This document shows, one piece after another, positions 21,110 to 38,795 of a stretch of 41,728 nt of DNA. Position 1 is the stretch's first letter; every line of letters starts with the position of its first letter. Source of the stretch: Flavobacteriaceae bacterium (GTDB lineage Bacteria; Bacteroidota; Bacteroidia; Flavobacteriales; Flavobacteriaceae); NCBI GenBank assembly GCA_027073495.1, contig JALSVQ010000107.1:5116-46843 (forward strand), given 5' to 3'. The notes below the pieces were generated by a model. It made no database searches. It saw only the letters and a program-made list of their open reading frames with translations, and had not been told where the DNA came from. The translations under genes and the position numbers were made by a program.

Positions 21110-23236
21110 ATGGGCGAAGAAAAAAAAGCATTGAATTTTATTGAAGAAATAGTAGAAAATGATTTAAAAAATGGTTTATCACAAGACCATTTACGTTTTC
21201 GTTTTCCACCAGAGCCAAATGGATATTTGCACATTGGGCATGCAGCTTCTATCTACCTTAATTTTGGACTTGGACTAGAATACAATGCGCCAGTAAATTT
21301 ACGCTTTGACGATACAAACCCTGCCAAAGAAGAACAAGAATATGTAGATGCTATAAAAAAAGACATTAAATGGCTTGGTTTTTCTTGGGATAAAGAATTG
21401 TATTCTTCAGACTATTTTGAACAACTTCACTATTGGTCAGTAACCTTAATACAAAACGGAAAAGCGTATGTAGATGAGCAAACTGCCGAAGAAATAGCTA
21501 CTCAAAAAGGAACCCCAACACAAGTTGGTACAGATAGTCCATATCGCTACCGCCCAATAGAAGAAAATTTAGAGCTTTTTGAACGTATGAAAACTGGTGA
21601 ATTTGATGAAGGTACACATATATTACGTGCCAAAATTGATATGAATTCATCCAATATGTTGATGCGTGATCCTATAATATATCGCATTCTTAGAAAAGCA
21701 CATCACCGAACAGGTGATGCGTGGAATATCTATCCAATGTATGATTGGACACACGGAGAAAGTGATTATCTTGAGCAAATTTCACATTCTATCTGTACTT
21801 TAGAATTCAAAATGCACCGGGAACTCTACGATTGGTTTTTAGACCAAGTTTATGATAAATCTATTTTGCCATTGCGCCCGAAACAACGCGAGTTTGCACG
21901 TCGTAATTTGAGTTATACTGTAATGAGCAAACGCAAGTTATTACAACTTGTACAAAACAAGGTTGTCAATGGTTGGGATGACCCACGAATGCCTACAATA
22001 TCTGGTTTGAGACGCAGAGGTTACACACCTGCTTCAATTCGAAATTTCAGTGAAATTTCTGGTATATCGAAGCGTGATAATGTTACCGATGTAGCATTAT
22101 TAGAATATTGCATTAAAGATGATTTAAACAAAACAGCTCCACGAGTTATGGCGGTGTTAAATCCTGTAAAAGTGGTTATTACTAATTATCCCGAAGGCAA
22201 AGAAGAATGGCTTGAAGCGGAAAACAATCCTGAAGACGAACATGCAGGAACTAGACAAGTACCTTTTTCAAAAGAAATCTATATTGAACGTGAAGATTTT
22301 AGAGAAGAAGCCAATAAAAAATTCTTCCGATTGAAACTTGGTAAAGAAGTGCGTTTGAAAAATGCTTATATTATTAATGCGAATAGTGTAGTTAAAGATG
22401 CAGATGGAACTATCCAAGAGATTCACTGTACATATGATGAAGATTCACGTTCGGGTTCTGGAACTGACGCGAGTAAACGCAAAGTAAAAGGTACATTGCA
22501 TTGGGTTTCAATAAATCACGCTGTAAAAGCAACAGTGCGTATCTATGATAGACTTTTTATAGATGAAGCACCCGATGGTCATAAAGATAAAGACTTTATG
22601 GATTTTGTAAACCCTAATTCATTAAAAACACAAACAGCTTATGTTGAGCCGAGCCTTGCAACAGCCAAAATTGGTGATCATTTTCAATTTCAACGTTTGG
22701 GCTATTTCAATATAGATGATGACAGTACAGCAGATCAATTGATTTTCAATAGAACGGTTGCACTTAAAGATTCTTGGGCAAAAATTGAAAAAAACACCAA
22801 TAATAAAGGGAAGCAACCACAAAATAATGCTTTGGCAGAAATTTATACTGCTGCAGGAAAATACTTAAAAGCACGTGAAGAAGATGAGCGTCAAACATTG
22901 GAAGCAAAGCTCTATGAATTAAGTAAAAAAGTAAGTGCTGATGAGGTTTTAGCATTAATACCACAAGCAAATAGTAACAAAGAGTTTCTAGCGTATTTAT
23001 TTATGCTTAACAGCAAGAATATAGCTCTTGATTTTGATAATAAAACCAATTTTGACAGTGCTAATGCTTTTTTAGCTAAAGCAATTGTGATGAAAAACTC
23101 TTATGTGCGGTATCGTGCGGTAGATTTTATCAAAAACTATCCTATTTTTCAAGCTAATTATTCGGAGTTGTTAAATACCATGGTCAAAGAAGATAAAAAC
23201 ACAAAGATTGTGGAGTTATTGAAGGGAATATTGTAG
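21110..23236 (+). CDS. glnS: Glutamine--tRNA ligase with C-terminal extension
   Basis: A 708-residue class I tRNA synthetase. The HIGH motif (FPPEPNGYLHIGHA, near 34-46), FDDTNPAKEEQEY and the KMSKS-equivalent VMSKR at 271-275 are those of GlnRS; the FDDTNP and EPNGYLHIGH forms favour GlnRS over GluRS. It charges tRNA-Gln directly in the cytoplasm. The anticodon-binding beta-barrels end near residue 557. The remaining 150 or so residues are helical (NALAEIYTAAGKYLKARE onwards) and exceed the 554 residues of E. coli GlnRS. Some bacterial GlnRS carry YqeY-like tails, but clear YqeY motifs are not visible here. It has its own promoter and no close co-directional neighbours. Confidence 0.95.
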   Translation: MGEEKKALNFIEEIVENDLKNGLSQDHLRFRFPPEPNGYLHIGHAASIYLNFGLGLEYNAPVNLRFDDTNPAKEEQEYVDAIKKDIKWLGFSWDKELYSSDYFEQLHYWSVTLIQNGKAYVDEQTAEEIATQKGTPTQVGTDSPYRYRPIEENLELFERMKTGEFDEGTHILRAKIDMNSSNMLMRDPIIYRILRKAHHRTGDAWNIYPMYDWTHGESDYLEQISHSICTLEFKMHRELYDWFLDQVYDKSILPLRPKQREFARRNLSYTVMSKRKLLQLVQNKVVNGWDDPRMPTISGLRRRGYTPASIRNFSEISGISKRDNVTDVALLEYCIKDDLNKTAPRVMAVLNPVKVVITNYPEGKEEWLEAENNPEDEHAGTRQVPFSKEIYIEREDFREEANKKFFRLKLGKEVRLKNAYIINANSVVKDADGTIQEIHCTYDEDSRSGSGTDASKRKVKGTLHWVSINHAVKATVRIYDRLFIDEAPDGHKDKDFMDFVNPNSLKTQTAYVEPSLATAKIGDHFQFQRLGYFNIDDDSTADQLIFNRTVALKDSWAKIEKNTNNKGKQPQNNALAEIYTAAGKYLKAREEDERQTLEAKLYELSKKVSADEVLALIPQANSNKEFLAYLFMLNSKNIALDFDNKTNFDSANAFLAKAIVMKNSYVRYRAVDFIKNYPIFQANYSELLNTMVKEDKNTKIVELLKGIL

Positions 23237-26916: not shown

Positions 26917-26925
26917 TATATTTGC
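26917..26925 (+). promoter_or_regulatory. -7 box heading the DUF6909-polysaccharide operon
   Basis: TATATTTGC matches TAnnTTTGC and lies 20 bases before the ATG at 26946. It overlaps the upstream TTG at 26922, ruling out that codon as the start. No further good box is seen before the end of the gene series near 41.2 kb, so it could drive the whole operon. Confidence 0.55.
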
Positions 26926-26945: not shown

Positions 26946-28628
26946 ATGAATAAAAAATATGTAAGAACACGTGCGCAAGAATCTTCTAATGCTATAGAAC
27001 GATTATATATTACAATGCGTCACTTGTTTAACCGTGGCTTTTATAAACCAACAGGAGTTTCAGGTGAATCAATACGTCAAGCACTTTTATTACTTAGACC
27101 AGAGATTTATGGATCAATAGCTGAAGAAAAAGTAGAAATAGAAGGTTTATCTTACGTATTAGATAGGCTACCAGAAGGAATAGAACAATGTCGTTTTATT
27201 AACTTAACATCTAGCGAAGGATTTGCAAAATCACATTTTAAAGTGATTATTCCACCTAAAAGAAGAAGAAACTGCTATCGTGTAGATGATGAGCAGATGA
27301 ATATAGAAATAACACGTGGACGATCGGATGTTTATGATGTTTTGACCCATTTAACATTTCTGTACAATGAATCGTTAAAAATAAAACAACGCGTACTACT
27401 CGATGTTAACACAGGTAAAACCAAACGTGAATGGGAAAAGTTTGAAAAAGCTATTGCAAAGCATAAAACGCTTACGGTATCTGAACGTGAGGTGGCACTT
27501 ACACATGCGGCAACTTTTTTAGCACGTTCTTTTGAAGAAGTACAAGAAGTATATAATACTTTTAAAACCAAAAAAAACCCAGACCGTTTTCTACAAATTG
27601 TCTATTGGTTAGGAACACTTGCCATAGAGGAGGCTGTAGAAGGTTCAAAACGAGCAATCACCTTTAGTCCTGTTTTGCGCGAACAAATAGGGCATCATAT
27701 CCATGGTGAGATTTGGGCAAATACGATTAAATCATTTTTAAATAAAAAAGGATTGTTAGAACGTCCTATTCATATAATTTCTGCCAACATGCACAGTGTA
27801 ATGAACTCTATTTATGCTCCGATAGTTTTTGAAAAAGAATTAAAAAAAGGCAAAGATATTATGGAGTTATTTGCAGATTTAAGTAAATCGGAGAATAAGA
27901 CAATTCGTAAGAAAATAATTGATTTTTCTAATAAAAACGGCTTATACTATATAGCAGATAATTCAGGAACCAACATTAATGTTCAACTAATAGATACTGC
28001 AAAAATTGATTTTTCAAAAACCAATTATAAACTCCATACATCTGATGATCAAAAACCAGTTATTTTTGTAATGGATTATGCATTTGGAGAGCAAGCTTAT
28101 GAAACATTAGATGAGTTTTTAAAACCTTTTACTCAAAAAGACACTAAAACATACTTAAATATCGTTTCTATATCTATAATGGGAAAAGCAGGAATTTTAT
28201 CAGGAAATAAAGGCGATATAATGATTCCAAAAGCACATATGTTTGAAGGAACAGCAGATAATTATGTATTTGATAATCAGCTTAAAAAAAAACATTTAGA
28301 AGGCTATGGTATTGGGGTTGTAGATGGTACAATGCTTACCGTGTTAGGTACATCATTGCAAAATAAAGATATGTTGGAATATTTTCAAAAATCAAGTTGG
28401 CGTGTGATGGGACTCGAAATGGAAGGTGCTCATTATCAAAAAGCCATACAAGCAGCATCAAAAATACGTAAAAATATACGTAATGATGTTAAAGTGAGTT
28501 ATGCGTATTATGCCTCTGACAATCCGCTTAAAACAGGAGCAACATTAGCCTCTGGAGGATTAGGAGAAACAGGTGTAAAACCCACGTATTTAATAACAAG
28601 AAAAATAATAGAACAAATATTTAATTAA
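26946..28628 (+). CDS. DUF6909 family protein; C-terminal half nucleoside phosphorylase-like (inferred)
   Basis: A 560-residue soluble protein, which I recognise as the Bacteroidota family DUF6909. The N-terminal 330 residues are mostly helical with no known motif beyond the family. From about 370 the chain reads like the nucleoside phosphorylase/nucleosidase fold: a first strand VIFVMDYAFGEQA, GKAG at 413-416 followed by GDIMIP at 423-428, then GLEMEGA with E491 and E493, and SDNP with D525. In that superfamily the EMEG motif binds ribose and a later SD aspartate handles the base, so a nucleosidase-type role is possible but unproven. The ATG at 26946 is chosen because the TTG at 26922 is within the promoter. 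The next gene begins one base after its stop, so it is firmly part of the polysaccharide operon. Confidence 0.75.
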   Translation: MNKKYVRTRAQESSNAIERLYITMRHLFNRGFYKPTGVSGESIRQALLLLRPEIYGSIAEEKVEIEGLSYVLDRLPEGIEQCRFINLTSSEGFAKSHFKVIIPPKRRRNCYRVDDEQMNIEITRGRSDVYDVLTHLTFLYNESLKIKQRVLLDVNTGKTKREWEKFEKAIAKHKTLTVSEREVALTHAATFLARSFEEVQEVYNTFKTKKNPDRFLQIVYWLGTLAIEEAVEGSKRAITFSPVLREQIGHHIHGEIWANTIKSFLNKKGLLERPIHIISANMHSVMNSIYAPIVFEKELKKGKDIMELFADLSKSENKTIRKKIIDFSNKNGLYYIADNSGTNINVQLIDTAKIDFSKTNYKLHTSDDQKPVIFVMDYAFGEQAYETLDEFLKPFTQKDTKTYLNIVSISIMGKAGILSGNKGDIMIPKAHMFEGTADNYVFDNQLKKKHLEGYGIGVVDGTMLTVLGTSLQNKDMLEYFQKSSWRVMGLEMEGAHYQKAIQAASKIRKNIRNDVKVSYAYYASDNPLKTGATLASGGLGETGVKPTYLITRKIIEQIFN

Positions 28629-36346: not shown

Positions 36347-37624
36347 ATGTCAATAATTTTAAAATATAGTAAAATACACGAATTTATTATTCTATTTTCA
36401 GTAATATATCTTGTTTTTTTTTATGATGTATTAGCTAATAGTTTAGGTTTTTATGATGAAATATTAGCTTTATATTTTATGATGGTTATTATAGTAGTTT
36501 TACTTTTTTCGAAAAAAATATTTTTATATAAAAATGAAAAAAACATTGTTATACTTCTTAGTTTTATAGGTTTTATAGGCTTATTATCTAATTATTTATC
36601 TTATTTGGGTGGTAATGTTACTGACACTAATGCTATTATAGGAGATTTTATTAATCTGTATAAAGCGTTTATTGTTTATTTTGGTATTCGATTAATTTCA
36701 TCTAAATTTAATGCACAAAATGTTTTAAAAAAAACTGAAAAACACACTCGGTTTTTATTTAATCTAATTATAATTCTTTTATTTTTTGATATTATATTTA
36801 AATTATTTCCTCAACTTCCTAGATATGGAATACATTCTTACCAACTATTTTTCTTACATCCATCTAGGTTTAGTTTTGTTTTTTCTTTCGTATTTTTAGT
36901 GCTTTTTAATAAATATATTAAATCAAATAAAAAACATCTATTATTTATTTTAATAATAGGCTTAACATCACTACGTGTTAAATATTTTGGTTTTGTAGTG
37001 CTTGCTATTTTTCTGATGTATTATAGACATTTATTATTTAAAATATCTAAAAAAACTATTTTTATTTTAATTGGTTTGCTATTTGTTTTAATTGGTTTGC
37101 TATTTCAAGATCAAATTAAAATGTATTTCTCATTTGATAATATAAAAAATGGATGGTCACGAGGTATTCTTTTGATGGAGAGTATTAAAATTGGGTATGA
37201 TTACTTTCCCTTTGGTACAGGCTTTGGGTCTTATTCGTGTTATTTTTCTGGTAAATATTATTCATGGGTATATGATAAATATGGAATCAATAATGTTTGG
37301 GGTATTTCTCGTTTTTATTGGGGTTTTGTGTCTGATCAATTCTGGCCAATGGTGTTAGGTCAATTTGGTTATTTTGGTTTGTTGGCTTACTTGTTAATTA
37401 TATATCAATATATCGTTTTGTTTTTAAAATTTTTAAAAAGTAATATAACAAATATTAAAAATTCTAATTATATGTTTACTGCATTACTGGGTATGCTATT
37501 GTTATTAATTGATAGTTCTTCTGACGCTATCTTTACTCAAAATAGAGCTGTGGTTCTATTTATTTTATTTGCTCTTTTTATTAATTCACAATCAAATAAA
37601 ACTATTGAAAAAAACACTAAATAA
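36347..37624 (+). CDS. Wzy-like polysaccharide polymerase candidate
   Basis: A 425-residue protein of about 11-12 membrane helices with a larger periplasmic loop around residues 285-335 (SYSCYFSGKYYSWVYDKYG). This is the layout of O-antigen polymerases and ligases. Sequence in this class is poorly conserved, so the call rests on topology and position between a glycosyltransferase and a flippase. A 21-base exact duplication in a membrane helix lies at 37065-37105. The downstream flippase gene starts inside its 3' end. Confidence 0.65.
   Translation: MSIILKYSKIHEFIILFSVIYLVFFYDVLANSLGFYDEILALYFMMVIIVVLLFSKKIFLYKNEKNIVILLSFIGFIGLLSNYLSYLGGNVTDTNAIIGDFINLYKAFIVYFGIRLISSKFNAQNVLKKTEKHTRFLFNLIIILLFFDIIFKLFPQLPRYGIHSYQLFFLHPSRFSFVFSFVFLVLFNKYIKSNKKHLLFILIIGLTSLRVKYFGFVVLAIFLMYYRHLLFKISKKTIFILIGLLFVLIGLLFQDQIKMYFSFDNIKNGWSRGILLMESIKIGYDYFPFGTGFGSYSCYFSGKYYSWVYDKYGINNVWGISRFYWGFVSDQFWPMVLGQFGYFGLLAYLLIIYQYIVLFLKFLKSNITNIKNSNYMFTALLGMLLLLIDSSSDAIFTQNRAVVLFILFALFINSQSNKTIEKNTK
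37065..37105 (+). repeat. 21-base tandem duplication inside the Wzy-like gene
   Basis: The 20-base sequence TTTTAATTGGTTTGCTATTT at 37065-37084 recurs at 37086-37105, period 21. It keeps the frame and repeats seven residues (LIGLLFV/LIGLLFQ) in a membrane helix. Confidence 0.85.
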
Positions 37625-38795
37625 TAAAGCAATACCTTTTGTCGAGTTATTTGCAAAAGTAATTTCCTTTGCAAATATTTTACTGTTTACAAGTATTTTA
37701 CCAATTAAAGAATATGCCAATTATTCATACATTATTGCTATTGTTTTGTGGGCTTCTGTTTTGATGGATGGTGGAATTAATAGTTTAATCTATAATAAAA
37801 GTTTAAAAAACGAAAAAGAAGGTATTAATGAATTATATACGGGTCGTTTATTTTTATCAATTGGAGTTACGGTAGTAATTGTCTTGTTTTTTTATTTTAA
37901 AAATCCAAAATTTGTTATTCCAGCTTTATTATTTTCTTTTATTACCTATTTTACCTCCACATCTTCATTAGTAAAAATGTTGTCTCGTGGTTTAGGCTAT
38001 ACCAAAGTTGATGTGATCGCAATTGTAGTAGAACCTATTTTTAGACTAATTGTTTTGTTGATTATTTATTTATTTAAAGACCAGTTAGATTTGAATTTGA
38101 GTATGGTGTTATTTTGGTATTTATTATCAGGTATTCTAGCTTTTATAATCAATAAAAAACAAATACGTATTTATTTTGAATTAAATTTGATAGCTATAAA
38201 ATCAAATCAACTGTATAGTTTAATAGTAAGTTCTTTACAAAAATCTAAATATTACTTATTGTATTATTTAATGTTTATTGGTTTAGCACGAATTGATGTT
38301 ATTTATCTAGAAACGGTGACGAGTAAAGAAAATTTGGGGACATATTCTTTAGCATTTCAATTATATCAAGTTGCGCAATTGTTTTTCTTTGCTATTATTA
38401 CATCGCAATTTTTAAAACTATATAATACTAAAAACACGATACTAAAAGTTATTATGCCACTTACTGTTTTAGCAATACTAGTTACCTATTTGCTATCACC
38501 TTATATTTTTAAGTATTTATTTAACCAAGATTATAATGATGGTCAGTTTGTGCTTAATATTTTAATTCTAGCATTGATACCATCAGTTTTAAATTACTAT
38601 TTTATTGCTAAAAATAATTATGAAAATATGGTTAAAATTAATTTTGTTTTGATTTTGCTGGTGTTTGCTTTAAAAGCAATGGTGTATTTTATTGTAGATG
38701 CTTCAAGTATTTTTTTCTATGCTTTTGGTGTTATTATTAGTGAATTAGTATTACTTTTAAGTTTTATTGGATACAAACAAATTAAAAAGCATTAA
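37605..38795 (+). CDS. Wzx-like polysaccharide flippase (MATE-like/oligosaccharide flippase superfamily)
   Basis: A 396-residue protein with about 12 membrane helices evenly spaced, beginning with IPFVELFAKVISFANILLF, as in Wzx and other oligosaccharide flippases. It would move undecaprenyl-linked repeat units across the inner membrane. The open frame extends upstream to a TTG at 37509, but that would add a long stretch overlapping the Wzy-like gene. The TTG at 37605 (TTGAAAAAAACA) gives the family's normal N-terminus and only a 20-base overlap. Assignment rests on topology, length and context. Confidence 0.75.
   Translation: MKKTLNNKAIPFVELFAKVISFANILLFTSILPIKEYANYSYIIAIVLWASVLMDGGINSLIYNKSLKNEKEGINELYTGRLFLSIGVTVVIVLFFYFKNPKFVIPALLFSFITYFTSTSSLVKMLSRGLGYTKVDVIAIVVEPIFRLIVLLIIYLFKDQLDLNLSMVLFWYLLSGILAFIINKKQIRIYFELNLIAIKSNQLYSLIVSSLQKSKYYLLYYLMFIGLARIDVIYLETVTSKENLGTYSLAFQLYQVAQLFFFAIITSQFLKLYNTKNTILKVIMPLTVLAILVTYLLSPYIFKYLFNQDYNDGQFVLNILILALIPSVLNYYFIAKNNYENMVKINFVLILLVFALKAMVYFIVDASSIFFYAFGVIISELVLLLSFIGYKQIKKH

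Follow-up and report, generated by a model that had tools for sequence, protein, structure and literature searches.

What is the function of the DUF6909 protein whose gene directly precedes a Wzz-like gene in this Flavobacteriaceae genome? The gene lies in the stretch of 41,728 nucleotides analysed here, called the window below. Its product scored 216 bits with the Pfam profile PF21850 (curated cut-off 27), and is thus a match to a family to which Pfam gives no function. A keyword search of the literature returned nothing on DUF6909, and a search on AMP nucleosidase (AMN) in Bacteroidetes returned little. The NCBIfam search of the protein gave no match, and the sequence search of PDB chains, performed with the protein or its alignment, yielded chance matches only. 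A TTG at 26922 lies in frame with the ATG start codon. The sequence TATATTTG at 26917-26924, 21 bases before this ATG, matches the Bacteroidota -7 promoter element TAnnTTTG, the frequency of which in the window shows no above-chance excess. The idea that the gene is phage or plasmid cargo was considered and rejected, as no relative was found on phages or viral contigs and plasmid matches came from Persicobacter only.

Table 1. Window coordinates of the DUF6909 gene, of the domains and motifs of its product, and of the following gene
Feature	Coordinates	Strand	Basis or remark
CDS, DUF6909 protein	26946..28628	+	560 aa, ATG start agreeing with homologues; PF21850 E 7.6e-64
N-terminal domain, residues 1-250, mostly helical	26946..27695	+	modelled alone
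Arg-rich conserved block, residues 103-127	27252..27326	+	P103, R106, R108, R112, D114, M118, E121, G125 and S127 invariant
HHIHGE, residues 250-255	27693..27710	+	H251 and G254 invariant; conservation and KpAmn active site (PMC9584410)
Predicted NP-I (nucleoside phosphorylase/nucleosidase) fold domain, residues 252-560	27699..28625	+	VIA-align and Foldseek on predicted model
SANMHS, residues 279-284	27780..27797	+	putative counterpart of AMN TN[YF] with active-site N205
DYAFGEQ, residues 377-383	28074..28094	+	aligned to AMN NFGMGSP, glycine loop after strand
GKAG, residues 413-416	28182..28193	+	GKCG in short AMN
GD, residues 423-424	28212..28217	+	conservation in 31 homologues
EGTADNY, residues 434-440	28245..28265	+	EGTSNDY in short AMN
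LEMEG, residues 490-494	28413..28427	+	M492-E493 correspond to AMN M404-E405 (ribose/base)
SDNP, residues 524-527	28515..28526	+	D525 corresponds to AMN D428 (base)
Wzz-like membrane protein, 326 aa	28630..29610	+	conserved neighbour in Flavobacteriaceae only, among the families examined

Conserved residues of the DUF6909 protein

A sequence-only reading of this DNA had listed a series of nucleosidase-like motifs in the protein, and translation of the open reading frame places all of them where that reading put them: GKAG at 413-416, GDIMIP at 423-428, L490-E491-M492-E493-G494 and S524-D525-N526-P527. In 31 homologues sharing 52-70% identity, G413, K414, A415, G416, D424, M426, E491, M492, E493, G494 and S524-P527 were invariant, and G423, I427 and P428 were conserved in at least 90%. 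Extending the comparison to 136 sequences left G413, K414, A415, G416, D424, E491, M492, E493, G494, S524, D525, N526 and P527 conserved in at least 99%. A lack of conservation of E491, E493 and D525 had been named as a reason to abandon the nucleosidase assignment; all three proved invariant in the 31 diverse homologues and at least 99% conserved in the 136 sequences. Two traits of NP-I enzymes, a [DE]ME motif for ribose and an aspartate that protonates the base, are present as E491-M492-E493 and S524-D525 in at least 99% of the 136 sequences. The ordered pattern G[KHTS][CAS]G-GD-[ED]ME-SDxP was absent from all 200,000 shuffled versions of the protein.

Predicted fold and domain layout

A full-length AlphaFold2 model was built from 31 sequences (pLDDT 81.8) and compared with known structures. 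VIA-align superposed model residues 252/255 to 560 with Z 19.2 and an rmsd of 2.7 Å over 213 aligned residues; this best Z was reached by PNP and UP (uridine phosphorylase) chains, tied with nucleosidases. In the Foldseek search, the first three rows were Salmonella AMP nucleosidase 2guw (E 1.5e-7 to 6.1e-7), followed by futalosine hydrolase, MTAN (MTA/SAH nucleosidase), UP and PNP, with 254 matches at E <= 0.001; the long 2guw alignments had an rmsd above 20 Å and served for ranking only. At the sequence level, the Pfam family PF01048 (PNP_UDP_1) weakly matched 13 of the 31 members (best E 0.0015), the window protein not being among them. On the model, then, residues ~252-560 have the NP-I fold. 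Together with the conserved core residues, the predicted structure bears out the proposal of a diverged NP-I protein carrying an added N-terminal domain, and the structural searches, from which a mismatch with this fold would have spoken against it, found a match. The domain limits need revision: the NP-I part had been placed from about residue 370, which is too late, and since the fold begins near residue 252 in the VIA-align span, the extra domain, mostly helical as proposed, measures about 250 residues instead of 330.

The ranking of PNP and UP chains by VIA-align means that the modelled structure alone would not single out AMN, and it is also what one would expect if DUF6909 were a phosphate-using nucleoside phosphorylase and not a hydrolase. 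The phosphate loop of phosphorylases such as DeoD has the form PGDP..R. This loop was not seen in DUF6909, where the segment reads ISANMHSV and is nearer to the TN[YF] of AMN, and profile scores with DeoD and UP remained within background, so that we regard a phosphorylase as very unlikely. The sequence of DUF6909 is distant from all characterised members, as might be the case for a catalytically dead NP-I domain acting as a ligand sensor; with every core catalytic residue invariant, such a loss of activity is scarcely credible.

Comparison with AMP nucleosidase

We compared the motifs of DUF6909 with those of the NP-I subfamilies. SDxP was found in 136/136 DUF6909 sequences, in 16/16 short and 4/4 long AMN sequences, and in 0/29 sequences of MTAN, DeoD, UP and PunA. 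GK[CA]G was present in all 136 DUF6909 and all 16 short AMN sequences, and EGTxxY in 132 of the 136 and 15 of the 16, respectively, neither of them occurring elsewhere. The hhalign score of DUF6909 against the short AMN of Bacteroidota was 24.7, while 35 unrelated families gave a mean of 14.9 (sd 2.4, maximum 20.7); with an E of 0.017, this sequence similarity is weak. The scores for MTAN, DeoD and UP (14.7, 19.8 and 17.7) were within background, the maxima being 21.7, 23.0 and 23.2. The hhalign alignment put the motifs in register, pairing AMN NFGMGSPNAA..MDLL with DYAFGEQAYETLDEFL of DUF6909, GKCG with GKAG, GEGTSNDY with FEGTADNY, DMET with EMEG, and SDQP with SDNP. Judged by sequence, AMN is the NP-I subfamily closest to DUF6909.

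The short Bacteroidota AMN (AMN-like by TIGR01721; structure 1ybf) shares with DUF6909 the NP-I fold and the motifs GK[CA]G, GD, EGTxxY, [DE]ME and SDxP in the same order, and its distribution among genomes alternates with that of DUF6909. It differs in its length of about 258 aa without an N-terminal domain, and in the presence of NRRVWE and of a Lys after SDxP; DUF6909 is missed by TIGR01721. The two-domain AMN of Enterobacteriaceae (E. coli Amn, K. pneumoniae Amn 7uwq, Salmonella 2guw) likewise combines an N-terminal domain with a C-terminal NP-I domain, shows [DE]ME and SDKP of the same motif type and is the top Foldseek match. Its N-terminal domain is PF10423 (AMNp_N), absent from both DUF6909 and the short AMN, it has GHCG in place of GKAG, and its R381, W383 and K436 are unmatched in DUF6909. 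Some genomes of the phylum encode AMN of about 393 aa and of the SDKP/GHCG type (L155, L156 and L157, from genomes G054, G065 and G112), the N-terminal part of which is shortened; Pfam matches L155 with PNP_UDP_1 alone, without AMNp_N. MTAN, futalosine hydrolase, DeoD and uridine phosphorylase have the NP-I fold in common with DUF6909 and, in many cases, catalytic residues of the ME and Asp type, whereas the MTAN, DeoD and uridine phosphorylase sequences tested lack SDxP, GK[CA]G and EGTxxY.

The active site of K. pneumoniae Amn (KpAmn) consists of H188', Y189', N205, R381, W383, M404, E405, D428 and K436 (PMC9584410). M404, E405 and D428 are matched in DUF6909 by M492, E493 and D525. H250/H251 and N281 are plausible counterparts of H188'/Y189' and N205, respectively. 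No conserved counterpart of R381 and W383 (in TTNRRVWE) or of K436 was seen in the alignments: the DUF6909 segment opposite R381/W383 reads TVLGTSLQNKD (around S470-N473), and no invariant Lys follows SDNP. This pattern indicates that the machinery for base and ribose would be retained and the recognition of the 5'-group altered, and because the 5'-phosphate residues R381 and K436 as well as W383 are unmatched, AMP is put forward only as the presumed substrate.

The N-terminal domain

Modelled alone from an alignment of 88 sequences, from which one plasmid sequence was left out, the N-terminal domain reached a pLDDT of 90.3. The comparison of this model with the PDB gave no convincing match (best Foldseek E 0.17, best VIA Z 4.0). 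The suggestions that it corresponds to AMNp_N, or to a further NP-I domain that has degenerated, were dropped as unsupported, an E of 0.17 and Z <= 4 being at chance level; the absence of AMN N-terminal domains from the Foldseek and VIA match lists is no proof that the folds differ. With Pfam, PF10423 matched neither the window protein nor any of the 31 members, while E. coli Amn scored 174 bits. The invariant residues of the Arg-rich block (P103-S127) suggest a ligand site, and we propose that HHIHGE may correspond to H188-Y189 of AMN, a pair lent to the phosphate site of the neighbouring subunit.

These observations bear on a different possibility, in which DUF6909, as a nucleosidase with this fold, would act on another adenine compound with a different 5'-group, for instance a breakdown product of an adenosine cofactor, recognised by the N-terminal domain, its role overlapping that of AMN partially without being identical. 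The base and ribose residues are retained and the 5'-phosphate ligands of AMN lost, as this would predict, and the invariant Arg-rich block of DUF6909 is unlike the AMN N-terminal domain, which is rather variable (PMC9584410). The EGTxxY and SDxP marks common to AMN and DUF6909 count against it.

Genomic distribution of DUF6909 and AMP nucleosidase

DUF6909 was detected in 43 of 296 genomes of a phylum sample, including all listed or sampled genomes of the window's family, the Flavobacteriaceae (f1), and of the other family of the same order (f2). None of these 43 genomes had an AMN match at E <= 1e-20; five Flavobacteriaceae genomes had weak AMN matches only, with E of 3.3e-7 to 1.5e-4. In a class sample of 295 genomes, DUF6909 was found in 20, AMN in 200 and both in none, for 13.6 expected (P 3e-11, ignoring kinship). 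In the best-sampled order, that of G076, 55 of 194 genomes had DUF6909, 108 had AMN, and only two had both for 30.6 expected (hypergeometric P 3.5e-22, again ignoring kinship); these genome counts are not independent, relatives being included, and kinship inflates the P values. The remaining 33 genomes had neither gene, indicating that the function is dispensable. The two genomes with both genes (G554 and G640), the only such cases among the samples, are large, at 9.0 and 6.7 Mb. Another NP-I enzyme, DeoD, was used as a control: it was present in 10 of the 194 genomes, nine of which also had DUF6909, and is therefore not excluded.

A switch between DUF6909 and AMN was observed between genera inside six families (f5, f8, f51, f95, f114 and f115), so that one inherited state per lineage fails to explain the exclusion. 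In the protein tree, the DUF6909 sequences of family f95 (L166 and L167, from genomes G350 and G508), which lies outside the window's order, nest among Flavobacteriaceae sequences, although support for their exact position is poor (0.44); this suggests a horizontal transfer of DUF6909 replacing AMN. The window's genome (88.6% complete) contains genes for PunA-type PNP, MTAN-like and UP-like proteins. AMN was not found in it, and the TIGR01721 profile gave no match there at E <= 0.001.

The near-exclusion of the two genes points to a role of DUF6909 in purine nucleotide metabolism. The two genomes holding both would be in line with a different adenine substrate, but the near-perfect exclusion of AMN and the switches at the genus level suggest the same role, and the other-substrate explanation appears rather unlikely to us. 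It is unlikely, too, that DUF6909 forms a new nucleosidase family whose own N-terminal domain recognises a non-AMP adenine substrate, with a reaction new for these bacteria that has made AMN dispensable.

Gene neighbourhood

The Wzz-like open reading frame starts one base past the DUF6909 stop codon, just as the sequence-only reading had reported; its product stayed below the cut-offs of all Pfam and NCBIfam families. A Wzz-like gene comes next after DUF6909 in 83/85 Flavobacteriaceae loci, separated from it by 1-132 bases, and dTDP-rhamnose-type genes are frequent thereafter. The usual order in this family is a gene for an M23 peptidase, one for a GH3-like protein (names that we assign from our own reading of the sequences), DUF6909, the Wzz-like gene and then rml genes; the window retains the Wzz-like gene but has DegT-type and GalE-type genes in place of the two usual upstream genes. 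Such an arrangement could mean that DUF6909 belongs to a polysaccharide system, in which it would process a nucleotide or nucleotide sugar for glycans or act with the Wzz-like protein in regulating the operon. No Wzz-like neighbour was seen, however, in any of 13 loci from other families, nor in the f51 and f95 loci, nor in Persicobacter, where the locus has a methyltransferase gene and DUF6909 is followed by a gene with the annotation mechanosensitive channel. Since the neighbour was not seen in the loci examined outside Flavobacteriaceae, the glycan link is local to one family and is no guide to function. The high conservation of DUF6909 extends to families whose gene neighbourhoods are unrelated. 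The polysaccharide link is thus weak, the role in glycan synthesis first suggested for the protein finds no support as a general one, and we judge it highly improbable.

Three further genes of the window were noted. At 36347-37624, a hydrophobic protein of 425 aa without Pfam match, encoded in the polysaccharide cluster, is a candidate Wzy polymerase. Its reading frame overlaps by about 115 bases that of a flippase (PF01943) at 37509-38795, the listed start codon of which is probably too early. A glutaminyl/glutamyl-tRNA synthetase-type gene (708 aa) lies at 21110-23236; the Pfam domains of its product stop near residue 536, and the C-terminal extension beyond them, about 170 residues long, has no assignment.

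Proposed function

We consider it fairly probable that DUF6909 is an NP-I N-ribosyl hydrolase, a nucleosidase that replaces AMN in a number of Bacteroidota lineages, Flavobacteriaceae among them, and hydrolyses an adenine 5'-nucleotide, probably AMP. The predicted NP-I fold, the invariant M492, E493 and D525, the sequence marks shared with AMN and the near-exclusion of both genes support this proposal; with the fold taken from prediction and the residues from conservation, we infer the reaction and its substrate. DUF6909 would bind an adenine 5'-nucleotide, most likely AMP, E493 would hold the ribose and D525 would protonate the purine base, and hydrolysis of the N-glycosidic bond would then release adenine and ribose 5-phosphate. 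Because the AMN ligands R381 and K436 have no conserved counterpart, we propose that the conserved, Arg-rich N-terminal domain, acting with the His loop (H250/H251), may serve in 5'-phosphate recognition and/or regulation.

Against a simple AMN reading, the unmatched R381, W383 and K436 mean that the 5'-group recognised by DUF6909 may differ, and the function ascribed here to the short Bacteroidota AMN comes in turn from annotation. As the phosphate residues of the AMN active site and a TIGR01721 match were both sought and not found, we do not class DUF6909 as an AMP nucleosidase; what we claim is a similar mode of action.

The analysis of DUF6909 also exposes a conserved domain of about 250 residues with no structural relative detected. 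The proposed activity provides a testable function for an unannotated protein of Flavobacteriaceae and would explain how these bacteria manage without AMN, as a natural gene replacement in purine nucleotide turnover.
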